64,000 nt of DNA, taken from Bacteroidales bacterium (GTDB lineage: Bacteria > Bacteroidota > Bacteroidia > Bacteroidales > UBA932). The number at the start of each line of letters is the position of its first letter. The first letter of the stretch is position 1. The notes under the pieces were generated by a model. That model searched no databases. It saw only the letters and a list, made by a program, of their open reading frames with translations, and was not told the DNA's origin. A program made the translations under genes and the position numbers. This document shows, one piece after another, positions 3,503-64,000 of this stretch. The stretch lies in the NCBI GenBank assembly GCA_024402135.1, contig JAKSJN010000011.1, positions 1 to 64,000 on the forward strand. Reading direction: 5' to 3'.

Positions 3503-3507
3503 AGAAA

Positions 3508-3538
3508 AAGAAAGCAGGGATCATTTCCCTGCTTTCTT
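3508..3538. terminator. Bidirectional terminator between glsB and the DUF6340 gene
   Basis: A 13-base-pair perfect stem (AAGAAAGCAGGGA paired with TCCCTGCTTTCTT) closes a 5-base loop, with A/T-rich flanks on both sides. It begins 5 bases after the glsB stop and overlaps the stop of the convergent gene, so it should serve both. Confidence 0.85.
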
Positions 3539-45300: not shown

Positions 45301-45418
45301 GCTCGCTATTGGCGTCGACTACGGAACCACGTACAGTGATGTTCTGCGCAAAGGCCATGACTGGCATGAGGAGAGCACAGAGCATCAGGCCGAGTGACCT
45401 TACTAAAGATTTACTCAT
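42320..45418 (-). CDS. SusC/RagA-family TonB-dependent outer-membrane receptor
   Basis: This 1032-residue outer-membrane importer has a signal peptide (MLCALLMPVMAFAQ). A carboxypeptidase-regulatory-like domain (GSVVDANSEPIPGAYVAVAN) is next, then a SusC plug (EIPANDISRALEGRVAGV, IRIRGQRSLSASNDPLIVLDG). A 22-strand barrel ends in LLGVNLSF. It imports oligosaccharides with the SusD partner and energy from TonB. It follows the GH67 gene by 32 bases, so aguA-susC-susD form one transcript. Confidence 0.96.
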   Translation of the reverse strand: MSKSLVRSLGLMLCALLMPVMAFAQNITVRGSVVDANSEPIPGAYVAVANTSNGTVTDLDGKFSISVASNATLEVSFMGYVTETVAVNGRTTIAVVLMEDTEALEATVVIGYGTAKKSDITGSISSVGGNDLREIPANDISRALEGRVAGVTMTQTSTKPGSSMQIRIRGQRSLSASNDPLIVLDGIPFMGSLSDISPNDIKSMDILKDAASTAIYGSRGANGVIMITTYKGVEGSDARISFNSYMTLKKAIKYPMMQGEKYIKMREMAASYTNSIYESNDVDTDWQDLFYRDGFTNNYELSVSGGTKSGSYRFGTTYYKDQAVVPTQAYDRIALNGSVDQKIGQYFKIGFSTNTNYNTNQGNQVDMYAALSKSPLVNPYDKDGNLYTRIDMPLDPNQYVFTREVIEDLTAKGVYNNESRSFGTYNTGYLQFNFPWIEGLSYKASVGLNYRNTRGGSFTGSGVNAQEGSQNGASWSFSETQNWTVENLLTFDRTFGKHHVNAVGLYSAEQTTSQGQSLSGKNIPNELFQWYNIGACLASDITVGGGSYSQYGLLSYMGRLMYTYADKYMFSAAVRSDASSRLAPGHQWHTYPAVSAGWNLHKEDFMSSTRSWLDELKLRVGFGETSNQSISPYSTLGGLGTSVYNFGDEKYSTGYRVTTLPNDELGWEYSLTWNYGIDYSFFQGRLRGSVEYYRVSTRDILLSLGLPSTAGVGSTTANIGATQNRGLEFTINGTIIDNEDWNWTAGVNIYANRNKLVALADGTTENTGQGWFVGKPLNCIYDYVYDGLWQVPANEHEEAIMDKLQPSKMNTATGYKDAIGSVKVKYFGEYDENGIPVRGITAADRQARSTEPIFAGGFNTTLRWRNLDLSVIGSFQAGGILLSSLHTSNSYLNMLTGRRGQLDVDYWTPENTGARYPRPGALLSGDNPNYASLLGEFNGSYAKIRTITLGYSLHRLNALKSVGISNCRVYATIQNPGIVLFSDFHKETGLDPETNASSGSTATGRPGPSGLSYVGFNTPQTHNYLLGVNLSF

Positions 45419-45450
45419 AATAGTGGTTAATTAGATGTTATAATAATGAA

Positions 45451-47520: not shown

Positions 47521-47558
47521 ATGTCATCAGTTTATTGTTATCGTGGCTTTTCCGTGCC

Positions 47559-47580
47559 TTTGCGTGAACGGTCACGCAAA
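47559..47580. promoter_or_regulatory. LacI operator O1, 22-base palindrome
   Basis: TTTGCGTGA, AC-GG centre and TCACGCAAA form a palindrome with one mismatched pair and a central CG, the usual form of LacI-family operators. It lies 39 bases before the GH67 start codon, where a bound repressor would block the operon. Confidence 0.7.
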
Positions 47581-47701
47581 ACATGGGCAAATAACAAGCA
47601 ATCGGGCTCTTGTCATATATCCATCTGACACCCAAATAGATACAGAGGCAAGAGTCTCGAAATTTCTTTGTTTGCGACCACTAATATAGTAATAATTATT
47701 C

Positions 47702-47713
47702 GGGAACGGTCAC
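47702..47713. promoter_or_regulatory. LacI operator O2
   Basis: GGGAACGGTCAC repeats the 10-base core GAACGGTCAC of O1, 48 bases before the regulator gene. One arm is degenerate. The two sites are about 139 bases apart, suited to looping and autoregulation. Confidence 0.6.
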
Positions 47714-47761
47714 AAAATATGTGTTATATAACAAAAATCATTACTATCTTTATCCCTGAAC

Positions 47762-48820
47762 ATGGGAAAAAACGTAACTATAAAGGACGTCGCGCTCCGT
47801 GCCGGAGTGTCGAAAGGAACGGTGGACAGAGTCGTCCACAACAGGGGTGTCGTCTCGAAAGAGAGTGCCCAGAGAGTGCTTGAAGCCATCAAGGAGCTTA
47901 ATTATGTACCGGACCGCCATGCGGCCATGCTGGCAACAAGAACGGTGCGTACCATAGCCTGTCTGATACCTTCCAGCGAGTCTGGTGGATACTGGGACAT
48001 GATCAATGACGGCATCCAGACCGCCGCCGCTGCCATAAAGGAGATGAACCTGAGGACAGAAGTGTTCTGCTTCGACATGAACGACGTACACTCCTTCCGC
48101 GATGCCTGCCACAGCCTGATCGCCAGTGAGCCCGCAGCGGCAGTGGTCGCTCCCCTCTTCCTCGCCGAATCCATACCGTTCGTGGACCAGCTCGCCAACC
48201 GCGGCATTCCCTACGTCTACATCGACACCAAGATAGAAGAAAGCCGCAGCCTCGCCTACTTCGGCATGCCGAAATATGACAGCGGCTACCTTTGTGCATC
48301 CCTCCTGACCTTCAAGATTCCAGCCGAGGAACTCAGAAAGATAGTCATCGTAAGAGTCAGCCGCGACCGCCACGGTCTCTCCGACCCGACCGTCAACCGA
48401 CGCGAAGGCTTCTGCGACTACATATACGAGCACTTCCCGAACTGCCAGATCTTCAACGTCTTCATCAGCCCTAATGCAACAGAAGATGAAATCCGGGACA
48501 ACCTGGACCGCTTCTTCAGCGAAAATCCCGACGTCCGACACATCGCCATGCTGAGTTCCAGAATCCACCTCATCGGCAACTACCTGCGGACCCACATGAA
48601 AGACGACCTGAGAGTTATCGGATTCGACAACCTGAAGTCAAACATCGACCTTCTCAAGGATGGAACTGTTGACATTCTGATCAGCCAGAGAATCGAAGAA
48701 CAGTCAATCCGTGCCTTGAGGGTCATGTCCGACTATCTCCTGCTCTTCAAGCGTCCGGAGAAGCGCGACAACTACATGCACATGGATATCCTTACCAAGC
48801 TGAATATAGCCGACTATTGA
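47762..48820 (+). CDS. LacI-family transcriptional regulator
   Basis: This 352-residue regulator has the LacI helix-turn-helix at residues 5-25 (VTIKDVALRAGVSKGTVDRV) and the hinge helix segment RHAAMLATRTVRTIACLIP. A periplasmic-binding-protein-like sensor domain ends the protein. The substitution of V-D-R-V for the usual V-S-R-V in the recognition helix is a known variant in Bacteroidota. It diverges from the GH67-SusCD genes and two matching operators lie between them. It most likely represses the locus until an aldouronic or uronic sugar binds. Confidence 0.92.
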   Translation: MGKNVTIKDVALRAGVSKGTVDRVVHNRGVVSKESAQRVLEAIKELNYVPDRHAAMLATRTVRTIACLIPSSESGGYWDMINDGIQTAAAAIKEMNLRTEVFCFDMNDVHSFRDACHSLIASEPAAAVVAPLFLAESIPFVDQLANRGIPYVYIDTKIEESRSLAYFGMPKYDSGYLCASLLTFKIPAEELRKIVIVRVSRDRHGLSDPTVNRREGFCDYIYEHFPNCQIFNVFISPNATEDEIRDNLDRFFSENPDVRHIAMLSSRIHLIGNYLRTHMKDDLRVIGFDNLKSNIDLLKDGTVDILISQRIEEQSIRALRVMSDYLLLFKRPEKRDNYMHMDILTKLNIADY

Positions 48821-51163: not shown

Positions 51164-52030
51164 CTACTCATCCGGTCTCAACGTCAAATCCAGGGTATAG
51201 TTCGTATTTCTGTAAACTCCTCCGTGAGACGTCACGGGAACGAGCATGCTCCTTCTCGTGCCGTTTCTCTTCGCCGACACCCTTACCATTGTCTGCATAT
51301 CCGGATCGCTCGAAAGATTCTCGCAGAAGTAATAATATCTCGTCACCGCATCAGCACGTCCCGTTGGAACCTTGCCGGAGACGGTCTCCGGAGCATAATC
51401 CATCAGATCTTCCTCCTCCAAAGCATCCATGCTCGAATGTATCGTGAACGGACGTGCTGCATTGACCACCTGAAACGACAGGTCTGAGAATTCATCCCCG
51501 GCCTGATGAACGACGAGCGTCAACTTGCAGCAGACACGGCTGAGCATCATACCGATATCCATACCCGCCTTCACGTCAACCGAACGTGTACCGACCATGA
51601 CAAGATGATCCGGTCCGTCGCCGCCCAGGTCAAGTCCAGCGTCAATCGGAGTACTGTAGAGAGCCTCTAAAGCTCCCGGCCATGGATACTGAACATCAGG
51701 CTCAAGCTCGAGGAAGTTGGCAATGACAACGAGAGTGCTCCTACCCGGACGGAGCGACAATCCCTTCACAGTGGCGGACAACTCGTCGGCCTCCAGGTCT
51801 ACAGGTATCTTCAGACATATCTCATTATCTGAATTGTATTGAAGAATCCATAAATCTCTCATGGTGTTCTCCGTCCTCGGTGTGAACTGGTGTCCCGCCT
51901 TCGTCTCCCCGGCTGACACACTGAGGGTGACAGGCACGAGGCCTTCCGACGTTTCTTCTACATAAGCATCCACACATGAGGCTACAGTCACCAGCCCCAG
52001 CAATGCCGTCAATATAAACTTTATCCTCAT
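51164..52030 (-). CDS. Fimbrial accessory lipoprotein, DUF4906-like
   Basis: This 288-residue lipoprotein (signal peptide ending TVASCVD) is the last gene of the fimbrial operon. The segment TMRDLWILQYNSD, then GRSTLVVIANF near 97-107 and the closing GVYRNTNYTLDLTL, resembles the N-terminal sandwich of DUF4906 and Mfa2/FimB-type proteins. Those anchor or initiate fimbriae. It lies 6 bases after the FISUMP-domain gene. An anchor role is inferred from family and position. An alternative is a second minor subunit. Confidence 0.55.
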   Translation of the reverse strand: MRIKFILTALLGLVTVASCVDAYVEETSEGLVPVTLSVSAGETKAGHQFTPRTENTMRDLWILQYNSDNEICLKIPVDLEADELSATVKGLSLRPGRSTLVVIANFLELEPDVQYPWPGALEALYSTPIDAGLDLGGDGPDHLVMVGTRSVDVKAGMDIGMMLSRVCCKLTLVVHQAGDEFSDLSFQVVNAARPFTIHSSMDALEEEDLMDYAPETVSGKVPTGRADAVTRYYYFCENLSSDPDMQTMVRVSAKRNGTRRSMLVPVTSHGGVYRNTNYTLDLTLRPDE

Positions 52031-52036
52031 ATCGTA

Positions 52037-54403
52037 TCAGTCAATGTGTACCGTATTATCCTTGACGCACCTGATGGACATGCCGTAACTGCGTCTCATC
52101 TTGAAGAGCATCAGATAGCGGCTTCCTGTTCCTCCGCCTACCTTGACCCTCACGTAATAGAAATATCCCTTGGTCGCGGTATCGCTCTCGTCTATCGTGC
52201 TGCTGGCATAGATGGACTCGACACCGGCGTTGGTCACCTTGGCGACCGCCTGGGTATACATATATCCGCTCACCGGAAGTTCCATCACCTCCGTAGGGTG
52301 CTCCCAGTCAAGCGCGTCCTTCTCGGTTCTGTTCCTCAGCCTCTCGTACCTTGACGATGAATAACGGCTGATCCTGAGGACTACAGGATAGACACCGCTG
52401 CCCACCTGCTGATATCCATTTTTCAGCGTGATGTATTCCCACTTGACACGGTAGGCCGCGTCCTCGCCCACGTTCTTGATGGCATATAGAATACCGCTGG
52501 CATCGCTGGTGCTCTTGCGCTGGCAGAAGTAATCCGTGAGGTGTCCGGCCGAAGGATCGCCCGGTTCTTCCTCCAGTCCGGCATAGGTCACGTTCCTGTC
52601 GCCGCCCTGCTCGTACCATTCCAGCAGGTTCTTGTGCATGATGAACTCCGTATTGCCGCCTCCGATATCGATCGGATTCGGATATCCATCCACACTGACC
52701 TTTGTCTTAGTGGCGGAGACATTCATGAAGGTGATATCACCCGTCCTCTTGCTCATAGGCATTATGGACGACCAGTCCTCCTTCGTCGGGATTCTCCAGC
52801 CCTTCGGGCATGGCTGATTCTGCGGATCGTTCCATGTGGCAGGCGTACCCCTGCGGACATTGTCCGAATTATCTATCGGCCACCAAGGAGAAACGTCGTC
52901 ATATGTACCGATGACATAAGAGTAGCGGTCTCTTTCCGACTGCGGAACATCCTCCCAGACACTCCACTTTTCCTCCCATTCACCAGGAAAGATCGCGATG
53001 TCAGAGAGGGAAGACGCCACATTTGTCCTGTTCCTGTAAGCCAGCGGATAACCATAGACATAAGAAGTATTTTTCTTATCCTTCACACCGACCGCACTCC
53101 ACAATCCACTTCCCGAACCGTCATAACGTCCTGTCGCGGGGTAAATGGTCTCATACTCTCTCACGGCTTCTTCCGCCTCCGAATATGAATTCTTGTTGGT
53201 CATAGGGAAAGCCGCCATTCTCGGATTAAGATTAGTGTACACGTTGACCGTATAACTGAACTTTCCCGTGGCATCGTTCGGCAGACTGAAATAAGGAATA
53301 TTCCTGCCGAACTGGTAATAGTAACCCCTCATGCCATCCCACTCCGCCGTACTGCCATAGGAGACGCTCGATGCTCCGAGGTTGCGGTCCGCCCAGGTAA
53401 CTCCGCCAAACGTGATCGGCTGTCCGAGGGTGAGAAGTCCGTCCTCTCCGGTATCGCCGTCCATGTAGAGGTACATCATAGGAACGATCATGAGAATCTG
53501 GATATCGCTGTTTATCACAGCCACAGATATCTTGTAGGCATTGCCTTGAAGAAGACCATGAGAATTGGGAATCGACGAGAAATCTATTTCAAGATCCTTT
53601 TCGAGTATCCTGTCATCATCAAGAAATCCTGTGTCATTGTTCGGTACCCTCACAGACACGTGCAGATGAAGAGGATCGTCGACATCTCTCGGGAAGACCA
53701 GGCAGCTCGCCATGTCCCGTCCGGTACCCGTCGGAATGAGCCTGTCCTGGGCGATATCCGCATCCCTGTCCTCGTCCTCGCCGTAGCTGTCCTCCAGCCA
53801 ACGTCCCTCTACGATGTCATAAACGCCCGACGAATGATCGGTGACGGTGAGACCGACAAGTTCTGCATCCTCGAGGTAGCCGCGGTCATCGCTGTCATCC
53901 TGCCTGATGAAGTTGAACTCAAGCAGGGAGAGCGCGTGTCTGTAATGCAGCTCGAGCATGCCGGAATTGACACTGGACTGTCCGGTCAGTTCGGCTCTCC
54001 TGAGATCGGGAAGACCATCCTCGCCGGAGGCTATCGAGATGAGAGGATGCCCGTCAGCACCACGTCCATCATCCTCAAATGATTCCGGTCCGCCGTAAGT
54101 CACTCCGTAGAAGTCCAGCGTATAGGTGTCGAAATACTCGGGGGTGTCCTCCGGCATGGCAAGGACACCGCCACCGACTGCGCCGACACCGTCGATGTAT
54201 GGATCGGAATAAACAGCGGAAGCACCGTTCACGCGAAAGGCATAGATCCTGTGGAAAGTACTTCCCGCGAAAGAGCCCTTGGTGGCGAAACCGTCGTCAT
54301 AAAGAGAAAAGACCACAGAGCCTCCGCGATCCTCTTTTAACGAGCATGACGCAATCGAAAGTAAAGCCGCAACCGCAGCTGCAAGATATCCTGCCTGTCT
54401 CAT
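52037..54403 (-). CDS. Large fimbrial lipoprotein with FISUMP (C-type-lectin-like) C-terminal domain, probable tip adhesin
   Basis: This 788-residue protein has a signal peptide with lipobox (LLSIASCSLK). The first 300 residues are fimbrillin-like sandwiches. From about residue 325 a FISUMP domain follows, recognised by FGGVTWADRNLGAS, GYYYQFGRNIPYF, CPKGWRIPTKEDW and the closing SYGMSIRCVKDN. This fold is related to C-type lectin-like domains and is frequent in tip proteins of Bacteroidota fimbriae. It is the largest protein of the operon and the only one with a binding-type domain. Its start overlaps the preceding stop (ATGA). Confidence 0.8.
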   Translation of the reverse strand: MRQAGYLAAAVAALLSIASCSLKEDRGGSVVFSLYDDGFATKGSFAGSTFHRIYAFRVNGASAVYSDPYIDGVGAVGGGVLAMPEDTPEYFDTYTLDFYGVTYGGPESFEDDGRGADGHPLISIASGEDGLPDLRRAELTGQSSVNSGMLELHYRHALSLLEFNFIRQDDSDDRGYLEDAELVGLTVTDHSSGVYDIVEGRWLEDSYGEDEDRDADIAQDRLIPTGTGRDMASCLVFPRDVDDPLHLHVSVRVPNNDTGFLDDDRILEKDLEIDFSSIPNSHGLLQGNAYKISVAVINSDIQILMIVPMMYLYMDGDTGEDGLLTLGQPITFGGVTWADRNLGASSVSYGSTAEWDGMRGYYYQFGRNIPYFSLPNDATGKFSYTVNVYTNLNPRMAAFPMTNKNSYSEAEEAVREYETIYPATGRYDGSGSGLWSAVGVKDKKNTSYVYGYPLAYRNRTNVASSLSDIAIFPGEWEEKWSVWEDVPQSERDRYSYVIGTYDDVSPWWPIDNSDNVRRGTPATWNDPQNQPCPKGWRIPTKEDWSSIMPMSKRTGDITFMNVSATKTKVSVDGYPNPIDIGGGNTEFIMHKNLLEWYEQGGDRNVTYAGLEEEPGDPSAGHLTDYFCQRKSTSDASGILYAIKNVGEDAAYRVKWEYITLKNGYQQVGSGVYPVVLRISRYSSSRYERLRNRTEKDALDWEHPTEVMELPVSGYMYTQAVAKVTNAGVESIYASSTIDESDTATKGYFYYVRVKVGGGTGSRYLMLFKMRRSYGMSIRCVKDNTVHID

Positions 54404-55461
54404 AATCTTACATCCTTCACATTAGATATGTTATCCCATGCAGCCACAACTATTCCGTCACTGACATTGACCTGAAAGCTGTATGTGTATCTGTAAGCTG
54501 ACTCGAAATACTGTGTTTTGAGAGTGGCCATGTACTGCGTGGGCACTCCGTTGACCGAGATGTTGAACACGATGAAAATGGCATTCGTGGTAGCATCCGT
54601 CGGAAGGATGGAGAGACGTCCGACAAGACAGTCATCCTCCCATTCCCATGTCGTCACCTTGAGCCAGTTGTACTTATTACCCACTCTGATGGGAAGGTAA
54701 CTGTTATCAGTCGACCAGTGAAAAGGCACGCCAGTACCCCGGTCCTCCTGCACTCCCGCCACTTCTACGCCCTCCGGGAGGATGTCCACATCTGTGACAT
54801 TATCACCCATATAGAGACGCAGTTCCATTTCCGCTGTCTGGTTGATCAGCGGATTCAGCTTGACCATCTGGAACGATCCCATGTCGGAACGCGTATTCAC
54901 CTCAACCACGAGAGGTGCGGTCTCTTCCCACCTGGTGTCCGTCGCAAGGACATACTCGCCATTATGTATCAGGGCGATGTCACTCAGATCGTTTTCAAGG
55001 TCATCATGAAGTTCCTTGGCAGGAGAGACAGCGTGGAATTTATACCACCCGTCCCTGAGCATCAGAGGCCTGTTATTCGACGGATCGCCGACCACTCTGC
55101 CATCCTCATCGGTCTCGCACGGCACAAGGGCGGCATCCTTGCCGAGCACAACGTATTTCCTCATGGCATAATTGGGGCTGATCTTCCACTCGTCATCGAA
55201 TTCATGCCTATCCGGATCAACCGGTTCCTCGATGAGGAGCCACAGTGTGGTACCCTCCGGCAGGGGAGCTACAGTGGCCGACAATGGCAGCGACGCCCTT
55301 GTCTGAGCGACACCCCATGAAGATCCTCCCGCACACACCATCACGCCCTCCATCCTTTCCGGGCATTCAATTCTCTCTGTACATGACACTCCTGCAATGA
55401 AGAGAAAAGACATTGACAGGAGAAAAAGTTTCATTCCTTTCATTTGCTCTGTCTTACTCAT
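54400..55461 (-). CDS. Fimbrillin-family lipoprotein
   Basis: This 353-residue lipoprotein has a signal peptide ending AGVSCTE. Start codons at 55461, 55443 and 55434 are all in frame; any gives a workable signal peptide, and I report the longest. The mature part begins with a threonine/arginine boundary (AQTRASLP) like the site where fimbrillins are processed. Two beta-sandwich domains follow, and it closes with YRYTYSFQVNVSDGIVVAAWDN, a fimbrillin-type end strand. It lies between a fimbrillin and the FISUMP tip gene. It is probably a minor or linker subunit. Confidence 0.6.
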   Translation of the reverse strand: MSKTEQMKGMKLFLLSMSFLFIAGVSCTERIECPERMEGVMVCAGGSSWGVAQTRASLPLSATVAPLPEGTTLWLLIEEPVDPDRHEFDDEWKISPNYAMRKYVVLGKDAALVPCETDEDGRVVGDPSNNRPLMLRDGWYKFHAVSPAKELHDDLENDLSDIALIHNGEYVLATDTRWEETAPLVVEVNTRSDMGSFQMVKLNPLINQTAEMELRLYMGDNVTDVDILPEGVEVAGVQEDRGTGVPFHWSTDNSYLPIRVGNKYNWLKVTTWEWEDDCLVGRLSILPTDATTNAIFIVFNISVNGVPTQYMATLKTQYFESAYRYTYSFQVNVSDGIVVAAWDNISNVKDVRL

Positions 55462-55465
55462 TACT

Positions 55466-56542
55466 CTACCTGCCAGCCGATATCGGGTTATCTACCGACA
55501 GGATGAAGCCGCCTCCGTCCTCCCATCCGTTCTCGACAGCCATAACCTCGAAACTGTCCTGGTCAAAAAGGACAGTGACGACGTACCTGTGTCCTGGACG
55601 TATGTCAGACACCCTTCTGCCGGTCGTAGAGTCATACACCTCTACTGCAATGTCATCGTAATGCCTTGCCTCGCCTTTATCATGGAAGGTCTTGTCCTTG
55701 GTATAATTGGCGTCCAGTGCGAAATGCAGCCGCGGCATGGTCACACTGTAATCATCACGGCATATGTAAAACGGTCCCGCCTCGGCATAGTTTTGTGTCT
55801 GGCCGCCGTCTGTTTCCAGAGGAATCATATGTGTCACAGGGTCAAACTCCAAAGGAAAAGAGAGTTCATTTCCTTCGCGTCCCCTGGCGAAATAGCCACC
55901 CAGGCCACGGTCAAAGGACAACTCATAAGGAGTATTTTCCCACGGAAAGGTCACTCTGACATTCATCACCTCCAGGTCCTTCATACTCCTCGAACGCATG
56001 GCACGAAAGGAAACGCTTATGACCGAGTGTCCGAATTCAAGAAGTTCACCCTCTCCCAGCGGCTTGAGCGAACTGCCGACAATCGGTCCAGCGGTCATCA
56101 CATCCTTCCACATGGCGTTATCATATCCTCCGTCATAGCGCACGGCCACCGTACCGTAACCGTCCCGAAGGTCGAGCAGAGCACCGGAGGAAGCGACATC
56201 AGCATCATCCATCTCCACCGAAGGGGAAAACCCAAAGACATGCACATTGTCATAGTTTGACGGATAGGCACGGTGTGTATAAAGCACATCATCGGAGTAC
56301 TTCTCCATCGACGGCAGCCACGTTTCGTAATATGGCTCGTAGCCCGGCGTACCTACATGTCCCAATTCAGAGTCCCTGACAGCCAGTATACGGCAAGGCG
56401 CGTCGCTCCCCTCGGGAGCCTTGGTCGTCATACAGATAACCTCCTGTTGTGGACTTACCGATACACTTTCGGTACAGGAAACCGAAAGAAGAAGCAGGGC
56501 GATCAGCCCCGTAAGTCTCATGTTCATCACTCTGTCCATCAT
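55466..56542 (-). CDS. Fimbrillin-family lipoprotein (Mfa-like)
   Basis: This 358-residue lipoprotein (signal peptide ending LLSVSCTE) has the Mfa-like pattern: TTKAPEGSD after a short linker, then VFGFSP, ELLEFGHSVISVSFRAMRSR and the closing HRYVVTVLFDQDS. A second initiator ATG follows the first. It lies 10 bases after the Mfa1-like gene. The family forms shaft or accessory subunits. The exact role here is inferred. Confidence 0.65.
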   Translation of the reverse strand: MMDRVMNMRLTGLIALLLLSVSCTESVSVSPQQEVICMTTKAPEGSDAPCRILAVRDSELGHVGTPGYEPYYETWLPSMEKYSDDVLYTHRAYPSNYDNVHVFGFSPSVEMDDADVASSGALLDLRDGYGTVAVRYDGGYDNAMWKDVMTAGPIVGSSLKPLGEGELLEFGHSVISVSFRAMRSRSMKDLEVMNVRVTFPWENTPYELSFDRGLGGYFARGREGNELSFPLEFDPVTHMIPLETDGGQTQNYAEAGPFYICRDDYSVTMPRLHFALDANYTKDKTFHDKGEARHYDDIAVEVYDSTTGRRVSDIRPGHRYVVTVLFDQDSFEVMAVENGWEDGGGFILSVDNPISAGR

Positions 56543-56552
56543 TTTTCCGTTA

Positions 56553-58187
56553 TCAAGGCTTGATGTTCACGTTTCCATAGCCATCCTGCCAGCCAGACGA
56601 CACCGCCGTCCTAATCTCTATCATGCTCGTGCTCACCGAAGGGACCCTCATAACCGAAGCCACCACATTATAGCTGTGATCCCTCCGGACCGAAGACAGT
56701 CCGTCCCAGTAGGTAACATGCTCAAGTCCTAGCGAACCACCATCCTGTATCTTCATACCATCCACGTAGGTACTGTAGTAACACATGCCCTGCGGATAGC
56801 AGATGAAATCTTCCTCCCTGAGCTCGCGTATGTTGGGATCCTCCGCATGACGCGCCCTTGTGTATGCGATCTCGTCAAGCACGCCCTGCCAGGTAAAGAA
56901 GGACTTAAGGTCAGGAGTCCAGAACGTGCCGTCCCCGCCCAGGGCGGCAACTGCGTCATCCATCGTCCCGAACGACTTGTAGATTCTCGGCCACTCCCCG
57001 CCCCTCATCCTTCCGGACACGACATAACGCGGTATGAAACGCGCTTCTACGAGTAAATGGGTAACTGCCTTCTCCGGAGCAAGCATCCTGTAGTCCGAAC
57101 GCTCGTCCTCCCCTTCCAGGAAGGTATCGGAAGCAACAGTATTCTCGGGGCAGAGAAGCCAGTGAGGTTCATCCCCATCGGCCACGGCGTAAGACATCCA
57201 TTGGAGATTATCGCCGGAATACAGCGAGAATACCTGCGAGGCGGATTCCCTGCCGACATGGAGGAAGTCTCCCGAATAGGCTGAGGTATAGAATGTCTCC
57301 CGGCCTGACTGCATCAGCACATCATCAAGAAGCATGTTCGGATCGTCCGCGTTCTCTCCAGGGTCGCAACAGTCATCCGCAGCCTCAAGAAAGACTTTCG
57401 AATTGACCGAATCAAGGAACCATCTCACACTTGAGAGCGGCACCCATCCGGCCTGACTGCCAGAGTCCTCCGGCAGATCGATGCGCAGTTCCTCAGGAAT
57501 GGAAGACAAATCCCAGTCATAATAACCGTCAATGACCACATAATCAGGATCTCCGTCATAGGTCTTGCAGGACAAGCCAACCTTTGCCACCATCCTGTGC
57601 AGTACGATATCCACGTCTATTTCCTGATTACTCTCCGTACCCACAACTGCACGGGCTGTACCCGACATCACATAACCCTTATCCTCGGAATAGAAGGCTT
57701 CGCCAAGGAGCTCTGCCATTTCGCCGTAGTCCTCCAGATCCGACACTGGAGAGAACTCCGGCACCGAATAGGCCATATTCCTGGACGTACGGAGTCCCCC
57801 TCGGGCGGAGGCTCCGGTCAAGAACGAGCTCATATCAGGCGTTAGATTGGCAAAGAGAGAGAAAGCGACGTCCCCGGAAGGAAGATCGAGCACGGTGGTA
57901 TAGCTGCGCGACTCCCCATCCTCCTCCAGCTCGTTCATGTCAAGTGTCCTCACTACGGCATAGGACCATCCTCCCGGCACATCTGGACGCACAACGAGCG
58001 TAAGAGAACTGATCATTGTCTCCGAATCATCGCCTCCCGACTTGAAATTCGGGATTCCGCCGAAGCGGAGGTTGACGACGGTGTCCTTGGCCGTATACGT
58101 CAAACCGGTCCCGTTCCCGTCTTCGGGGACCGGATTGCATCCGGCAATCACCGCAAGCAGCAGAGCTGTAATCGTTCTTCTTCTCAT
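56553..58187 (-). CDS. Mfa1/FimA-like fimbrial subunit
   Basis: This 544-residue lipoprotein (VIAGCNPV) looks like the P. gingivalis FimA/Mfa1 group. An N-terminal domain carries AKDTVVNLRFGG and ETMISSLTLVVRPD, the central segment is DIVLHRMVAKVGLSC, and the C-terminal end has CYYSTYVDG and VRRDHSYNVVASVMRV. In that group the first strand is removed by a protease and subunits join by strand exchange. It lies 1 base after the preceding fimbrillin stop. I cannot say whether it is the major shaft subunit. Confidence 0.6.
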   Translation of the reverse strand: MRRRTITALLLAVIAGCNPVPEDGNGTGLTYTAKDTVVNLRFGGIPNFKSGGDDSETMISSLTLVVRPDVPGGWSYAVVRTLDMNELEEDGESRSYTTVLDLPSGDVAFSLFANLTPDMSSFLTGASARGGLRTSRNMAYSVPEFSPVSDLEDYGEMAELLGEAFYSEDKGYVMSGTARAVVGTESNQEIDVDIVLHRMVAKVGLSCKTYDGDPDYVVIDGYYDWDLSSIPEELRIDLPEDSGSQAGWVPLSSVRWFLDSVNSKVFLEAADDCCDPGENADDPNMLLDDVLMQSGRETFYTSAYSGDFLHVGRESASQVFSLYSGDNLQWMSYAVADGDEPHWLLCPENTVASDTFLEGEDERSDYRMLAPEKAVTHLLVEARFIPRYVVSGRMRGGEWPRIYKSFGTMDDAVAALGGDGTFWTPDLKSFFTWQGVLDEIAYTRARHAEDPNIRELREEDFICYPQGMCYYSTYVDGMKIQDGGSLGLEHVTYWDGLSSVRRDHSYNVVASVMRVPSVSTSMIEIRTAVSSGWQDGYGNVNIKP

Positions 58188-58188
58188 A

Positions 58189-59121
58189 TCAGTCCAGTAC
58201 GGTCTCTGATCGACTGCCTATCCACTGGCAGATCGCAATATTCATCTTCAGCGTAGCTTCGACATCGAAGGACACCCCGACCTTGGATATCTTCAGCACG
58301 TACACATAATCAGTATTGAACCTGACCGGAGTAAACTCCGCAGGTATGACAACCTCCGATGCATCGACATGTTCTGTCCTGCCCGAGCCGTCGTCCGTCA
58401 CATCAAATGAAAGCGTCACATTGACAGGAAGCGTTCCCCCAAGAGGAAGTACACGTGTTATGTCCGTCCCATAGGCGAGGCCGACCGATTCCGGCGCCGT
58501 GCCCGGGATGAACTCTGTCACACAGGCGTCCTCCCAAGAAGGAAGAAGAGTCACGTCATAATCATCCATGTCATCATATCCGACGCTGTAATCAACGCCC
58601 GACGAACAGAATCCCGAAGCATCAAGGCTGATGTCTCCGACAGACATGGTGGAGAGCGTTTCATAGACGACAAAACGCACACCGCAGGAAAGCGGGGTGA
58701 AGACCATCCTCATGGCACGTCCCAGCGGAGCTGTGGTGTTGTCCTGAATAAAGGCGACAAAGGGTGCATGAACGGCATCCACGTCGCTGAACGACGCCCC
58801 GCCGATGCCACCATCGCCGCTGGTAGCCGGGCTGAAACCGCAGAAACGGTATAGATCAGCCTCCATGTCCCAGTATTTCAGAGGACCGTAGGTGTATGAT
58901 CCGGAATCATAAGATACCTCGGTACCGTTAAAGACGACCTGTTCGACATCACCCTTCTCCTTCACTGCCCATACACGGAACCCCTGTTCCAGAGGGGTCG
59001 CCTTCGTGGGAAGGACATCCGTGTCAAATCCGATCGGCGCACCGTCCGGACCGGCTATGTCAGCACATGACACAGCTAGAAAGAACAAGAAAAACAAAAC
59101 AGATGAGTGTCGCATGTCCAT
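58189..59121 (-). CDS. Fimbrillin-family lipoprotein
   Basis: The ATG at 59121 gives about 310 residues; the ATG at 59115 is equally possible. The signal peptide is LFFLFFLAVSCAD. The processing-like region LPTKATPLEQGFRVWAVKE is followed by KYWDMEADLYRFCGFSP, matching the KYWD...YDFYAVAP block of the upstream paralogue. Two sandwich domains end with RFNTDYVYVLKISKVGV, the usual Mfa-like final strand. It is a diverged paralogue of the 59170-60225 gene. Confidence 0.72.
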   Translation of the reverse strand: MDMRHSSVLFFLFFLAVSCADIAGPDGAPIGFDTDVLPTKATPLEQGFRVWAVKEKGDVEQVVFNGTEVSYDSGSYTYGPLKYWDMEADLYRFCGFSPATSGDGGIGGASFSDVDAVHAPFVAFIQDNTTAPLGRAMRMVFTPLSCGVRFVVYETLSTMSVGDISLDASGFCSSGVDYSVGYDDMDDYDVTLLPSWEDACVTEFIPGTAPESVGLAYGTDITRVLPLGGTLPVNVTLSFDVTDDGSGRTEHVDASEVVIPAEFTPVRFNTDYVYVLKISKVGVSFDVEATLKMNIAICQWIGSRSETVLD

Positions 59122-59169
59122 CAATTGAAACAATACAAGGGAGGCCGGACAAGCCAGCCTCCCGGATCA

Positions 59170-60225
59170 TTACTTAACCTCGAACTCTGTAGATACGGTC
59201 ACATCCTCCTCATCAGCAATCACTGCATCGAACACGATAGGTTTGAGCTGGTCAGCAGTGATTCTGAACACATAGGTGTAGTTGGTATTGGCCGCCCATA
59301 CAGTAGCGGTAGCAGGAACGGTCGCAAGGACGTTTGATACATGGATCACTTCGTCCGAGTCGATCGAATAGAGATCATAGTCGGCACAGAGCTTGAGCAC
59401 TACACCGGTCTGGGTTGGCCAAACGGTCACGGCTGTTCCCTTGGAAAGTGTTGCCTCGGCATTGGTCTCCGCGAGGACGCCACTGACAGCTGTGCCGTTG
59501 ATTTCAGCCTCACCGGCATAGTCGACCGAACCGAAGTCGAGCGAAGCCACGTCCACGAGGGTGCCTGAAGGATTGGCGATGGCAACGCCGTCCTCATAAG
59601 TGATGCTGTACTCCTCGGCCGACTTGATGGCATTGGTGCTGGTCACGTAAAGGACAGCATCAGCACCGGAATTGCCGGTTGCCGAAGAATGGTCAACAGC
59701 GTAGAACTTGAGGTTCTTCACACTGTAGCCGGGCACGGTCTCATAGAAAGCCACATTGGCGGTGGCGTTCACCTTCCTGAAGGTCATGAGAACCTCCTCG
59801 CCGTATGCAGCAGGAGCGACGTGGGTCTGGTCGGTCACATAGACGTCAGACGAAGCGTCAACCACATAAGCAGCATCAGGAGTAATATTGGTCACCGCAG
59901 AAGCAGGAGCCACTGCGTAGAAGTCATAACCCTTGGCACTGTTGTCCCAGTACTTGACAGGACTGTAACTCCAATCCGAACCATCATGAGTCACAACGTA
60001 GTCAGGGAAGACAACCTCTGACGAGTTGCTGGCGTTGGTCTTAAGGCCAAATACCTGAAAATTGTCCAGAACATCCTCAAGGTCAGCGCCCTTGGTCATG
60101 TTCGATGCCATGGTGCCGAACTGAAGCGGCATCGGCTGCTGAGGGACATCCATCACCGAGTCCTTGAGTGAGCATCCTGTAAGCACAAATGCAAGAGCGA
60201 ATGAACAAAAAATAGCTTTTCTCAT
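59170..60225 (-). CDS. Fimbrillin-family lipoprotein (Mfa-like 1 type)
   Basis: From the ATG at 60225 the protein has 351 residues with lipobox VLTGCSLK. Typical fimbrillin blocks are NMTKGADLEDVLDNFQVFGL, SPVKYWDNSAKGYDFYAVAP and the C-terminal WAANTNYTYVFRITADQLKP. The frame upstream of 60225 is A/T-rich leader. Of the operon's genes this fits the Mfa-like family best, so it may be a main structural subunit. A paralogue follows 48 bases downstream. Confidence 0.8.
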   Translation of the reverse strand: MRKAIFCSFALAFVLTGCSLKDSVMDVPQQPMPLQFGTMASNMTKGADLEDVLDNFQVFGLKTNASNSSEVVFPDYVVTHDGSDWSYSPVKYWDNSAKGYDFYAVAPASAVTNITPDAAYVVDASSDVYVTDQTHVAPAAYGEEVLMTFRKVNATANVAFYETVPGYSVKNLKFYAVDHSSATGNSGADAVLYVTSTNAIKSAEEYSITYEDGVAIANPSGTLVDVASLDFGSVDYAGEAEINGTAVSGVLAETNAEATLSKGTAVTVWPTQTGVVLKLCADYDLYSIDSDEVIHVSNVLATVPATATVWAANTNYTYVFRITADQLKPIVFDAVIADEEDVTVSTEFEVK

Positions 60226-60278
60226 AATTATAAAATTTTTAATGGTTTTACACTCCTTGGCGGAATTCTTTATTCCAA

Positions 60279-61403
60279 TCACATATCGATCTCGATAAAC
60301 GAATCATCCGGATCCTTCACGACAGCATCGAAGGCCGACCCACCAGGTCTTTTAGGCATCCGTATGCCGTCCACATCAAGCTCTACCGTAATAACTCCAC
60401 CTTTATATCGCCTGCGAACCCTGTCTGTAACGTCAAACACGAAAGTAGAGTCACAGCCATTCGCGAAATACATGTCAACCTCGAGATAGTTTCTCAGGCT
60501 TGGCGGCACTTCCTCCGCCTTGGTCACCCTGTCCGGACACGTCTCGCACAGCCCGAACGTCACCAAACGTCCTCCCACGATATCGTCTGTCCCTCCTGCG
60601 GCCTTCTTGAACCTGACAGGATAATGCACAGCCACGGCTTCGCCACCGTTCACACCCGTATTGAGGCTCACTCCGGCTGCCATACCTGTCAGATTGGCTC
60701 CTCCATCCACACCCATTATCCTTCCCCTGTTGTTGTGCAGGATAACCTGGGTCAGATAGATATAGGTCACGGGACGCAGAACCATTTTCAAAGGATGAGA
60801 CCAATCACCTGTCATGCAACTGTCCATCGGCTCAATAAACGATAAATCTTTCCTCTGTCCCGAATAGAGAAGTTCCGGCATATGCGACGCATATCCTGAT
60901 TTCGTGCCGGGGTATTGATTCTTGATCTTTACCTTGGTAAGATTGGTAGTCGCAAACACATCCTGCAGCGATGTCTTCTCATCAAAAACGAGCGACTGCA
61001 CACCATCGAGTGTCACGATGTCGTTCCAGGCAAGAAGATCATAGCGTCCGCCCCTGAAAGTACACAAATGGCTGTAGCCCTTCACGTAATCCGGCTTGGA
61101 ATCAAGATGAGTTCCCTCGCCATCATCGGAGAGGAGATAACGCCTCAAGTTGAAAGACTCTGGCAAAGCATACTCAAGGGTACCGAAGAGTTTCATGTCA
61201 TCTTCATCCCATCCATACAGCCACTCCGACCTCCAGTCATAAGTCTCTTCCCCGCCGTAATCCCAGTACGAATCCAGATCCAGCCCGTCCAGCTCAAGGT
61301 CAATACGGACCTCATGATCTCTGTGCAGGCGCAGATCTGGCTCTATCTGGCATGAGAGCAGGAGCAAAAGAGCAGCATATGGAACAATCGGCCGTCTCAT
61401 CAT
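60279..61403 (-). CDS. DUF5119-domain fimbrial lipoprotein
   Basis: This 374-residue lipoprotein (LLLLSCQIEP) has the DUF5119 pattern: RDHEVRIDLELDG, then GRYDLLAWNDIVTLDG and LVLRPVTY-like LKMVLRPVTYIYLTQVIL. A C-terminal domain follows with GVITVELDVDGIRMP. DUF5119 and DUF3575 genes regularly head Bacteroidota fimbrial operons, as here, and are thought to be anchor or assembly parts. It overlaps the DUF3575 stop (ATGA). Confidence 0.82.
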   Translation of the reverse strand: MMRRPIVPYAALLLLLSCQIEPDLRLHRDHEVRIDLELDGLDLDSYWDYGGEETYDWRSEWLYGWDEDDMKLFGTLEYALPESFNLRRYLLSDDGEGTHLDSKPDYVKGYSHLCTFRGGRYDLLAWNDIVTLDGVQSLVFDEKTSLQDVFATTNLTKVKIKNQYPGTKSGYASHMPELLYSGQRKDLSFIEPMDSCMTGDWSHPLKMVLRPVTYIYLTQVILHNNRGRIMGVDGGANLTGMAAGVSLNTGVNGGEAVAVHYPVRFKKAAGGTDDIVGGRLVTFGLCETCPDRVTKAEEVPPSLRNYLEVDMYFANGCDSTFVFDVTDRVRRRYKGGVITVELDVDGIRMPKRPGGSAFDAVVKDPDDSFIEIDM

Positions 61404-62038
61404 CCTTTCCTCCTTTTGAAAATATACCTCACAGATAAACCGACACGTGTCGGTCCCAGCCAGACATAGCGTCCCCTGCGAGACACGAAATCCTCTGCGA
61501 GTCCTTTCCAGTCATAGTAATAATGGCCATCCACCGTTCCGGTTACCGGATCGCCCCAGACATAGTTATCATATCTGGTAGCGAGCAGACCCATCTGTGC
61601 CGATAGGGAGACCGAAAGACGGTGTTCTCTGCCGCATAGCCACTCCCATCCGAACGACAAGCCTCCGCCAGCAGCTTCACCTTGCCAGCCGCGGCTGCCG
61701 TCAAGACCGATTCCATATCTTTGGATTCCTGCATAGATACCCACGAAAGGACCCTTGAAGAGCGAGTCCGAGCGATGCCACCTCACCTCCGGCTGCAAGG
61801 AAGTCACTTGAAGATAACGGTGTGTGTCGCGATTACGGAACCACGGTCCGCCCACTGTGACGGCCACGGTACGCTTTCCGCCAGCACCAAACTCCACTTC
61901 ACCCGAAGGAAGGGACAGAAGATCGACGCCGACAGCCACCTTGCGCTCCTGTCCAGAAACATTAATGCTGAACATGAGCAAGACCGCTGTCAACAGAAAC
62001 AGTTGGGATAAAAATGAATTAGACACGTAGCGAATCAT
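61400..62038 (-). CDS. DUF3575 protein, fimbrial operon outer-membrane component
   Basis: The ATG at 62038 gives 212 residues with signal peptide ending INVSGQ; a TTG start 27 bases upstream is possible. There is no lipobox. The mature part has repeated amphipathic strands (VAVGVDLLSLPSGEVEFG, GPFVGIYAGIQRYGIGLDG, LSVSLSAQMGLLATRYDNY, TRVGLSVRYIF), consistent with a small beta-barrel. It matches DUF3575, the usual first gene of such operons. It heads the nine-gene run and follows the frameshifted mini-gene. Confidence 0.82.
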   Translation of the reverse strand: MIRYVSNSFLSQLFLLTAVLLMFSINVSGQERKVAVGVDLLSLPSGEVEFGAGGKRTVAVTVGGPWFRNRDTHRYLQVTSLQPEVRWHRSDSLFKGPFVGIYAGIQRYGIGLDGSRGWQGEAAGGGLSFGWEWLCGREHRLSVSLSAQMGLLATRYDNYVWGDPVTGTVDGHYYYDWKGLAEDFVSRRGRYVWLGPTRVGLSVRYIFKRRKG

Positions 62039-62156
62039 CAGCGTTGATCGTGTTGCACACACCAATTACAATTATTAGACATTGTAACGAATTGAACGGA
62101 CGCGCGAACTGATTCTCACGTTTGTCGCTTGTGAATTTCTGACAAGAAGTGGGTTG

Positions 62157-62302
62157 GAAGATATCTTTACCTTTCGGGAAGTCCTCGAGGTTATTGTCCA
62201 TGAAGGCTGGGCGGGAACTATCGCAGCTGGAATTGAGGAGCGGCCACGAGCATCAATAACGATGATCTGCACCTTCGATGCAGAATAGACGTTTACTGTC
62301 AT
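62157..62302 (-). pseudogene. Frameshifted copy of the 51-codon fimbrial mini-gene
   Basis: From the ATG at 62302 the sequence encodes MTVNVYSASKVQIIVIDARG, matching the intact mini-gene at 63428-63583. A 1-base deletion then shifts the frame. Aligned to the intact gene, the third part resumes in the other frame (DSSRPAFMDNNLEDFPKGKDIF) with a further 6-base deletion, and no stop at the matching place. The actual frame from 62302 runs 75 codons to 62075. It lies before the DUF3575 gene. The 394 bases from 62039 to 62432 hold only this remnant and its leader. Confidence 0.8.
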
Positions 62303-62357
62303 AGTAGTATAAGCAAAAAATGGTAGAGCGAAATTACCACGGTCTAGCTTATAGCTA

Positions 62358-62386
62358 CGTCCAAAATAGTCCAAAAAGCCTCCAAA
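62358..62386 (-). promoter_or_regulatory. Triple direct repeat in the leader of the fimbrial operon (copy A)
   Basis: Reading the minus strand, TTTGGAGG, TTTGGACT and TTTGGACG start 11 and 10 bases apart, one helical turn each, about 56 bases before the mini-gene remnant. The same three sites with the same spacing occur in copy B. They are probably binding sites for one regulator. Confidence 0.65.
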
Positions 62387-62432
62387 TTCAGTTAAAAAAG
62401 GGGAAAAAGTGGCGAAATAGCCGTCTCAGGGG

Positions 62433-63425
62433 CTAGAAGACCTTCATATCGTGGACCTTGCTCCTCACGCAAGTGAACGAGGTCTTGGACTTTGTCGTGC
62501 CGGCAGTACCGTCGCTATGGTAGGCGGTCGCACTGAAGCCTGACTTGGTACCTGGCCATACAGGGATGTAGTAGGTCCTGCCAGCTTCAAAAGGCTGTCC
62601 ACCTTCGCGTGTCACAGTAATGGTATTGAAGATATAGCTCGGACGATGGGTCTCGTTGTTATAGACGAGATATGCTCCGAACCAATCGTCTCCCTTGCTT
62701 GGCCAGTTAGATGGGTAGAAGACGCAGGCAGGGCCTGCGATCATATCCCTGCGCTGATAATAGCTGGGCTGCTGCGTTCCCGGCTCAGTCGGAAGGTCGC
62801 AGTCAACTGAAACGACCATCCTTGTTATATCCGAAGACTCGACAGTGAAACTGAGCAGCGAGACCGCATTCCTGAACTGGAGCACAGGAGCAGGATCGGA
62901 CGCCGAAGTTCTGGCATTCGAGGCAAGCATGATAAGATAGTTCTTATCCATGTTGTCTCCATCCTTGATTACCTGATGGTCGGAGATGTCGCAGAGAAAT
63001 GCATTCAGCATGCCATCGAATCGGAGAGACCTCATCCAGCCGCTGGCGCCATAGGTATAAGGATACACCGCATTGAAGTCCAGCGCCGAACTGAATACAT
63101 TCTCAAATGGTGATCCAGTATTGGTAAGACCGAACACAGCGGTCTCGCCATCGACCTTGACGAGCTCGAAAGCGGCACCCTCGACCTTGTCCTTGGCGAC
63201 CACCCAGAGATTCTCACTGCCGATGACCTTGTCCCAGCTGAGAGTCAGGTCATCCGACATGGAAACCTTGGTATCGGTGGACGAGTCCATCTTCGCGGCA
63301 ATCTCGAACGGATGCGCGAGCTGATCCTCAGGTATGTCGATTGTGGATTTCTGGCAGGCAGTGAACGGAAGTGCCGCCAAAAGAGCAGCCCAGAGGCAGC
63401 TGATGATACTATTGCTGTTCCTCAT
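62433..63425 (-). CDS. Fimbrillin-family lipoprotein, separate unit
   Basis: This 330-residue lipoprotein (ALPFTACQKS) has the fimbrillin features TKVSMSDDLTLSWD near 54-67, FNAVYPYTYGASGW, AVSLLSFTVESSD and the closing GQPFEAGRTYYIPVWPGTKS. It starts 2 bases after the stop of the 51-codon mini-gene, so the two must be co-translated. It is separated from the main fimbrial operon by the second leader copy. It may therefore be an independently transcribed subunit under the same control. Confidence 0.75.
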   Translation of the reverse strand: MRNSNSIISCLWAALLAALPFTACQKSTIDIPEDQLAHPFEIAAKMDSSTDTKVSMSDDLTLSWDKVIGSENLWVVAKDKVEGAAFELVKVDGETAVFGLTNTGSPFENVFSSALDFNAVYPYTYGASGWMRSLRFDGMLNAFLCDISDHQVIKDGDNMDKNYLIMLASNARTSASDPAPVLQFRNAVSLLSFTVESSDITRMVVSVDCDLPTEPGTQQPSYYQRRDMIAGPACVFYPSNWPSKGDDWFGAYLVYNNETHRPSYIFNTITVTREGGQPFEAGRTYYIPVWPGTKSGFSATAYHSDGTAGTTKSKTSFTCVRSKVHDMKVF

Positions 63426-63427
63426 GA

Positions 63428-63583
63428 CTAAAAGAGATCTTCACCTCTCGAGTAGTCCTCGAGGTTGCTGTTATTGTCAAGGAATGACGGGCGGGAACTA
63501 TCGTAGCTGGTATCGAGGATGCTGCTACGGACATCGAGGACGATGATCTTTGCCTTCGGTGCTGAATAGACGTTTTCTTTCAT
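63428..63583 (-). CDS. 51-residue mini-protein upstream of fimbrillin
   Basis: The frame MKENVYSAPKAKIIVLDV... has 51 codons and ends in SRGEDLF. The first half is KVYxxP-like with a beta-strand (AKIIVLDV); the second is acidic and Asn/Ser-rich. There is no signal peptide. From memory, such short proteins beginning with MKK.Y..P and a hydrophobic strand are scattered through Bacteroidales genomes without assigned function. Evidence that it is real: a frameshifted homologue exists at 62302, similarity runs beyond the leader into the coding part, and the next gene starts 2 bases after its stop. It could be a regulator, a secreted peptide or a translation-coupling leader. Confidence 0.7.
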   Translation of the reverse strand: MKENVYSAPKAKIIVLDVRSSILDTSYDSSRPSFLDNNSNLEDYSRGEDLF

Positions 63584-63641
63584 AGTAGTAATAAGCAAAA
63601 AAAATGGTAATGCGAAATTACCTCAATCCAGCCTATGACTA

Positions 63642-63670
63642 CGTCCAAAAACGTCCAAAGAACCTCCAAA
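63642..63670 (-). promoter_or_regulatory. Triple direct repeat in the leader of the mini-gene (copy B)
   Basis: On the minus strand TTTGGAGG, TTTGGACG and TTTGGACG start 11 and 10 bases apart, about 60 bases before the mini-gene ATG. A GGTAAT...ATTACC inverted repeat lies between them and the start (63605-63621). Spacing is identical to copy A. Confidence 0.68.
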
Positions 63671-63675
63671 TTCAG

Positions 63676-64000
63676 TTAAAACGAAGGTAAAAGTGGCGAA
63701 AACAACCTCCTGTAAAGGTCAGCCTTATTCTCCAGTTTCATCGGGTACGCGCGGGATGAACTCGGCATCCGCCACCAACGGAGGGAAGTATTTCCAAAAG
63801 ATCCATGAGGATGGAAAACTTCTATCTCAACGGACTCCCCTACCTTTGGAATCTTCACCTTCAATCCATGGGACTCGAAGTAGGACTGAAGCTCCTCGCT
63901 CGCCTTTCCACCCGTGGTCACGATTGTACGGCACTCCGGCAGCTGCTCGAGGAGCGCGAACACATCCGTCCCCTCCTCGATCTCAAGGAAGTTGTCATCA
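63676..64000 (-). CDS. Uracil-DNA glycosylase family protein, 5' part outside the window
   Basis: The frame is open at the window end and continues beyond it. About 107 residues are visible: DDNFLEIEEGTDVFALLEQL, TIVTTGGKASEEL, KIPKVGESVE and WRMPSSSRAYPMKLENKADL. The RMPSSSRAYP segment corresponds to the DNA-intercalating motif near the C-terminus of the uracil-DNA glycosylase superfamily. Members excise damaged bases from DNA or G/U mispairs. The last codons (SPLLPSF) and the stop lie inside the duplicated module also found at 62391-62422, so the tail may derive from that duplication. Confidence 0.8.
   Translation of the reverse strand, partial: DDNFLEIEEGTDVFALLEQLPECRTIVTTGGKASEELQSYFESHGLKVKIPKVGESVEIEVFHPHGSFGNTSLRWWRMPSSSRAYPMKLENKADLYRRLFSPLLPSF

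Follow-up and report, generated by a model that had tools for sequence, protein, structure and literature searches.

Recombination that sets variable lipoprotein genes behind a shared 5' region is known from Mycoplasma vsa. The Vpma shufflon is likewise a recombination system with variable lipoprotein genes behind a common 5' region (PMC11868660, excerpts). In Bacteroidales, surface proteins are varied through the invertible promoters and invertase-controlled surface genes of Bacteroides (PMC11868660, excerpts), and type V pilus loci, with their Mfa- or Fim-like fimbrillins, combine fimbrillin-like lipoproteins with an operon of DUF3575, Mfa_like_1 and Mfa_like_2 genes. The units described here have something in common with each of these. 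As in vsa and Vpma, an upstream part is shared and a downstream lipoprotein part appears to be exchanged; they differ in that the join falls in a separate small ORF, that the junctions spread over 58-92 nt and that the codons of the conserved box vary. With the invertible promoters they share surface-protein variation in Bacteroidales, but the regions concerned, 62000-62460 and 63420-63760, hold just short inverted repeats (arms of 8-15 nt, 73-100% complementary), and an invertible segment was rejected. The pilus loci resemble ours in their lipoproteins and operon genes, but in our unit the lipoprotein gene stands alone, preceded by a 51-aa ORF. Small ORFs as such are plentiful: 409 sORF candidates are given for B. 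thetaiotaomicron (PMC7366714, excerpts), and the small-protein catalogues PMC7324362, PMC11364881, PMC13376575 and PMC7366714 may include members of our family as unnamed entries. In their main texts, "fimbri" and "lipoprotein" occur 0 times in PMC7324362, PMC11364881 and PMC13376575, and "fimbri" 0 times in PMC7366714.

The window, by which we mean the whole stretch of 64,000 nt that was analysed, carries two related segments, copies A and B, and their neighbours:

63676..64000, minus strand: glycosylase-like gene, 3' part, whose last codons (from about 63701) overlap the repeat
63584..63701, minus strand: copy B leader, 87% identical to that of A (leader alone)
63644..63670, minus strand: three TTTGGA direct repeats of copy B, spaced 11 and 10 nt
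63613..63620, minus strand: candidate -7 element of copy B, TAATTTCG, one mismatch to TAnnTTTG, 37 nt before the ATG
63428..63583, minus strand: copy B small ORF, 51 aa, beginning MKENVYSAPKAKIIVLDVRSSILDTSYDS, an intact member of the small-ORF family
62433..63425, minus strand: lipoprotein gene, 330 aa, starting 2 nt after the small-ORF stop
62303..62417, minus strand: copy A leader, separated by 15 bases from the end of the lipoprotein gene's stop codon, 87% identical to that of B
62360..62386, minus strand: three TTTGGA direct repeats of copy A, spaced 11 and 10 nt
62329..62336, minus strand: candidate -7 element of copy A, TAATTTCG, one mismatch to TAnnTTTG, 34 nt before the relic ATG
62157..62302, minus strand: small-ORF relic of copy A, frameshifted after about codon 21 and missing two codons; its open frame runs from 62302 to 62075
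62094..62151, minus strand: remnant of a lipoprotein gene in copy A, 83% identical to 63306-63363
61400..62023, minus strand: DUF3575 gene, first of the downstream fimbrial operon (Pfam PF12099, E 2.3e-19)
51164..61403, minus strand: rest of the fimbrial operon, with Mfa_like_1 and Mfa_like_2 genes above cut-off

The two copies are homologous well above the level of random intergenic DNA. BLASTN aligns 62158-62417 with 63432-63701 on the minus strand at 215/270 identities (80%, E 2e-64). Collinear with this, a second block pairs 62094-62151 with 63306-63363 on the same strand, at 48/58 (83%). Split by part, identity is 100/115 (87%) in the leader and 118/146 (81%) in the small ORF. The copied stretch opens with the final codons of the glycosylase-like gene, takes in leader and small ORF, and extends at least into the beginning of the lipoprotein gene. 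Copy A starts 15 bases past the lipoprotein stop codon, as expected for a tandem copy. Because the second block lies inside the 330-aa lipoprotein gene, at its lipobox region, the duplicate comprises more than a control region. The sequence-only reading had seen a control module duplicated in front of two fimbrial units. It was right that a duplication happened and that one copy, through A's leader, precedes the DUF3575 operon, but what was copied is a gene unit, not a control module alone, and copy A is now a relic. The glycosylase 3' end that it took to be shared amounts to a few final codons downstream of the conserved ..RLF end; its shared short gene is indeed related sequence in both copies, but intact in B only; and its lone fimbrillin is a lipoprotein gene, placed as stated after the other copy, that matches nothing in Pfam or NCBIfam at E 0.1. 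No third copy was detected in the 2.6-Mb genome, where the 8 further matches listed all have E 1.36 or worse. The search of related genomes that the same reading had proposed found leader plus small ORF, at E 0.001, in 1/300 genomes of the genus, the window's own, with no match in the 299 others.

Copy A shows several signs of decay. A 1-nt indel causes the frameshift in its small ORF, and a deletion of about 60 nt just ahead of the 58-nt remnant took away the start codon and signal peptide of the lipoprotein, so that copy A has neither an intact small ORF nor a lipoprotein start. Counted by codon position, the two small ORFs differ 5/4/5 times ahead of the indel and 7/3/4 times beyond it; this flat pattern is expected if protein selection is absent in at least one copy, and it contrasts with the third-position excess (38/33/79) of 18 leader-sharing pairs elsewhere. 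Copy B, on the other hand, keeps the family motif Y-x-x-P ... E ... I/L-x-x-S (E 8.6e-22 against profile A1, whose alignment includes it) and has a lipoprotein start within about 100 nt downstream, at a gap of 2 nt and with a ..FTACQK.. lipobox. The N-terminal part of the 330-aa protein matches the profile of lipoproteins found after small ORFs, which carries a TKA..W..GD..YP pattern (hhalign 94.5%, E 7.5e-8); since Mfa_like_1 matches just 1 of the 28 proteins of that profile, the link of the 330-aa protein to fimbrillins is indirect. A pattern scan returned no relatives of it, a search of 151 genomes gave the protein itself and one partial match at 34%, and solved structures gave nothing better than E 0.25.

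Given the two blocks in order, the frameshift, the deletion and the lack of codon-position bias, together with the place of the family ahead of lipoprotein genes and like neighbouring units in relatives, A and B very probably arose when one gene unit, comprising an upstream region, a small ORF and a fimbrillin-like surface-lipoprotein gene, was duplicated in tandem, B being the intact copy and A a relic. Copy B, having kept everything, most likely works: a promoter in its leader would yield one message for the 51-aa protein and the lipoprotein. Copy A would have lost its lipoprotein gene except for 58 nt and the frame of its small ORF, leaving the upstream region as the sole part that is possibly functional and, now, as the nearest promoter-like sequence ahead of the DUF3575 operon. 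Some observations count against this explanation. The leader is kept slightly better (87%) than the small ORF (81%), and A's leader could be under selection; the A/B pair has no close relative among the 300 genomes; and the window is a contig of a genome assembly in 34 pieces.

The three direct repeats that the sequence-only reading had noticed in both leaders are borne out in full: TTTGGA is exact, with the same spacing in A and B, about one helical turn apart, and the pattern is expected 0.05 times in the window even with up to 3 mismatches allowed. The exact pattern occurs nowhere else in the genome, and with 3 mismatches it occurs at 4 further places, against 3 for a reversed control pattern; as the leader is also unmatched in the 299 other genomes, a leader regulon was rejected. 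The Bacteroides -7 consensus is TAnnTTTG (PMC7366714, excerpts). Among the 106 family units having enough upstream sequence, 30 have an exact TAnnTTTG at 12-110 nt before the small-ORF ATG (mean 6.3, maximum 15 in 100 shuffled sets), and 19 of these 30 elements lie at 27-52 nt. This excess suggests that the small ORF is read first, and it is likely the first cistron; the exact element is missing in range from the other 76/106 units, however, and the window copies have one mismatch. A second candidate promoter element, TGAATTTG, lies 88-91 nt upstream of the ATG in both copies; if it is used, the repeats and the hairpin would be inside the message. That hairpin, also proposed from the letters alone, is a fold region in both copies but a weak one: among 200 shuffles of the short leader pieces, 10 (A) and 26 (B) fold equally well, and by eye the changes in A break 2/6 of the inner pairs of B. 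An RNA element was rejected (leader folds are unexceptional, the sole Rfam match in the window is a tRNA elsewhere, and 13 related loci gave tRNAs only), as was an intrinsic terminator within the leaders: the stretch scanned has 3 such sites where shuffles give 2.4, and on the minus strand the leaders contain none. Two genomes, at loci L033 and L044, have a common stretch with TCTCTTACCAAGAGA upstream of the small ORF.

Taken by itself the duplication in the window is ordinary, and the points deserving attention are the small-ORF family and the junctions within it. A profile built from copy B and four relatives has matches in 95/151 genomes of the genus at E 0.1, a per-genome threshold at which about 15/151 are expected by chance, and several genomes have many copies. 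For the analysis of neighbours we took the best 80 rows of a longer list (E 0.0017 or better) and excluded 5 (3 at contig ends, 2 inside longer ORFs). A larger gene, defined as an ORF no shorter than 120 aa whose start lies between -60 and +100 nt relative to the stop of the small ORF, directly follows in 64/75 cases, at a median gap of 11 nt, and 59/64 of these genes have a lipobox by a crude rule that overlooked four proteins resembling lipoproteins by eye. Control ORFs of 36-70 aa at the same loci are followed by a larger gene in 88/941 cases and by a lipobox in 20/941. At least two (L174 and L180) of the 11 rows without a larger ORF in range obtained one by a later script, and in a second set, of named records, the counts are 47/50 for the larger gene and 44/50 for the lipobox. 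An order-wide search passed E 0.01 in 12/247 genomes, including the window's own and one of its genus; next to the small ORF of some of these 12, the larger gene was not found. The small ORF has no covering model in Pfam or NCBIfam (1/50 members is marginal in each library, to different families), and no phage family matched it. Aligning 28 of the 62 lipoproteins listed gave a common N-terminal pattern, the lipobox followed by TKA..W..GD..YP; in Pfam, 3 of the 28 match Lcl_C, and six further families, Mfa_like_1 among them, are each matched by one protein. Fifty aligned small ORFs have a more conserved N-terminal half, with Y and P invariant, and a variable C-terminal half. The window's own genome has two further relatives of the small ORF, one before a 263-aa exported-looking protein (contig C14, 3648-3764; L133) and one before a lipoprotein (contig C24, about 4657-4785; L166, L206), and at L236 (about 3321-4130) two units stand back to back on opposite strands.

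We favour, with modest confidence, a reading in which a unit consists of a head, made up of the upstream region and the first 20-30 codons, and a tail, made up of the latter half of the small ORF together with the lipoprotein gene, and in which loci and species exchange heads and tails. The recombination would take place inside the conserved coding segment or shortly past it; new adhesin-like lipoproteins would thereby gain existing promoters while the small protein stays in frame, and the A/B pair would be one tandem copy event in this process. The leader and ATG are common to 161 pairs drawn from 173 distinct units, pairs that are non-independent, as many come from few head groups. In 86/161 the lipoproteins are not alike, meaning no blastp match at E 1e-3 past the first 40 residues, though the profile shows that many share an N-terminal region. 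Homology ends 58-92 nt past the ATG in 67/86 of these pairs, midway through an ORF about 130-165 nt long, and in the remaining 19 it ends before +58 (17) or after +92 (2). Examples are found within single loci and between them. In L125 and L128, leader and small-ORF start are 82-88% identical and the next gene is not alike, with one exception in L125, a pair alike throughout at 75%. Neighbouring units with alike leaders number three in L125 and two each in L128 and L245; the three of L125 (4641-7997) are about 1.6 kb apart, the middle one having an alike head and a different lipoprotein. Between -282 and +88, L208 and L209 agree at 95%; beyond that they diverge. The window pair departs from the pattern, its homology continuing through the entire small ORF. 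For identical residues, codons mismatch at 0.47 in the conserved box against 0.59 expected, and at 0.59 against 0.61 outside it; codons thus vary in the box, somewhat less than expected, which gives no suggestion of a fixed recombinase site, and a fixed DNA site in the small ORF seems unlikely.

The same pattern could arise with no reassortment at all, from very fast change in the lipoprotein gene and the latter part of the small ORF after ordinary duplication, with the leader and the first half held constant. Among the 72 leader-sharing pairs with related lipoproteins, homology reaches beyond +200 in 24 and stops earlier than +56 in 11, but in 37 it ends at 56-107 nt past the ATG, so that the second half can change fast without exchange, which accounts for part of the pattern and weakens the argument from end points. 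The distant N-terminal profile common to many of the lipoproteins points the same way, as do L207 and L208, which are 98% identical from -336 to +61, diverge, and are alike again (81%) from +690 to +947. We nevertheless find fast change somewhat unlikely as the whole explanation. In 13 hand-selected pairs mean identity falls from 85-92% up to +60 to 74% at +60 to +80 and about 50% past +80, a drop within some 20-40 nt. There is also a converse: 43 pairs share lipoprotein-gene DNA, at least 250 nt starting 20-250 nt past the ATG, and have no homologous leader (44 counted, less one artefact from two starts in L271; another 54 pairs share both leader and body). And L208 (1501-2712) is a mosaic, its head to +50 being 94-100% identical to L056 and its sequence from about +150 82-100% identical to L243, whose leader is unlike its own. 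Chimeras made in assembling metagenomes would also join one head to different tails; all 52/52 named loci come from MAG or uncultured records (sources include water buffalo, yak, goat, dairy cattle and red deer), and repeats may mislead assemblers. This we judge very improbable, as heads are 78-95% identical, not exact, across the assemblies of different projects (25 best-listed pairs), converse pairs exist, single contigs contain neighbouring units and the window pair itself is a plain duplication.

Reassortment of heads and tails, which we prefer, leaves room for several views of what the small ORF and its leader do. In the 18 non-overlapping pairs, with cut-offs chosen by the analyst, differences by codon position are 38/33/79 in heads and 18/22/37 in tails, an excess at the third position that suggests translation of both halves. 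That speaks against a regulatory leader peptide whose product is itself inactive and which acts through translational coupling or attenuation, although nonsynonymous changes outnumber synonymous ones (changed codons, synonymous/nonsynonymous: heads 45/67, tails 25/34). The probable place of the small ORF as first cistron, the short gap to the next start and the short ORFs resembling leader peptides in long 5' UTRs of B. thetaiotaomicron (PMC7366714, excerpts) would all suit such a peptide, which we consider unlikely. Distinctly less probable is a precursor of a modified or exported peptide, with the lipoprotein as its receptor or immunity partner. Its conserved leader half with invariant Y and P and its variable core would fit, as would the way in which tail similarity tracks lipoprotein relatedness over 91 units (difference 0.119, with 0/2000 permutations as large), more than head similarity does (0.071, again 0/2000); no precursor model matched in Pfam or NCBIfam, however, and linkage and shared descent may explain the correlation between tail and lipoprotein with no physical partnership. 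As for copy A, its leader might be a working promoter recruited by the DUF3575 operon, which would place the lone lipoprotein and the operon under one TTTGGA-binding regulator, much as the sequence-only reading had supposed. Both copies retain the repeats and the candidate -7 element, their leaders agree at 87%, no -7-like element with at most one mismatch lies between A's small-ORF start and the DUF3575 start, and all these genes are on one strand. We regard this as quite possible and yet rather doubtful. The DUF3575 gene is present in 33/151 genomes at E 1e-6, and around it, in flanks of up to 1.5 kb at 30 loci (29 relatives and our own), no match to the small ORF is better than E 0.99; the operon does not usually carry the module, since the relatives' 29 loci have no small-ORF unit ahead of DUF3575. 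The exact repeats, confined to A and B, reveal no regulon, read-through from unit B would be equally serviceable, and the relic between leader and operon points to leftover sequence. The place of copy A ahead of the operon looks incidental, and its leader may have become useful there.

In the open literature, a scope that leaves out most subscription journals and all supplements, we found neither the small-ORF family nor the head-tail junctions. If the head-tail reading is true, it explains how promoters and highly diverse surface lipoproteins might be combined in gut Bacteroidales with expression kept intact, and the small ORF would be a constant handle with which to locate such lipoproteins in genomes. 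Since the tail tracks the type of lipoprotein, the small protein also gains a testable role.

The surroundings of the unit add some minor observations. The rest of the fimbrial operon also contains DUF5119-like, Mfa1-family-like and FISUMP-like genes below cut-off and others without a match, 51164-54403 having been scanned against NCBIfam only; the DUF4906 label used for this operon is that of the sequence-only reading. Near its end, at 42320-48820, lie what we take to be a SusC-like gene, an alpha-glucuronidase-like enzyme and a LacI-type regulator. On the other side, the glycosylase-like gene resembles a DNA-deoxyinosine glycosylase, under the NCBIfam cut-off (40.3 against 80 bits), and its protein has one match among solved structures (E 5e-5, an uncharacterized protein). 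Beyond the ..RLF end, the 29 orthologues listed vary in length and sequence. The nearest relative of the gene (82%) ends ..RLFR, in a genome (G012) without a DUF3575 match. There a lipoprotein gene on the opposite strand, whose end is presumably phosphatase-like to judge from a motif, adjoins the glycosylase-like gene, and a relative of the small ORF lies past its 3' end. A small-ORF relative placed in this way, behind rather than ahead of a lipoprotein gene whose end looks phosphatase-like, is seen at L142 (3254-5671).
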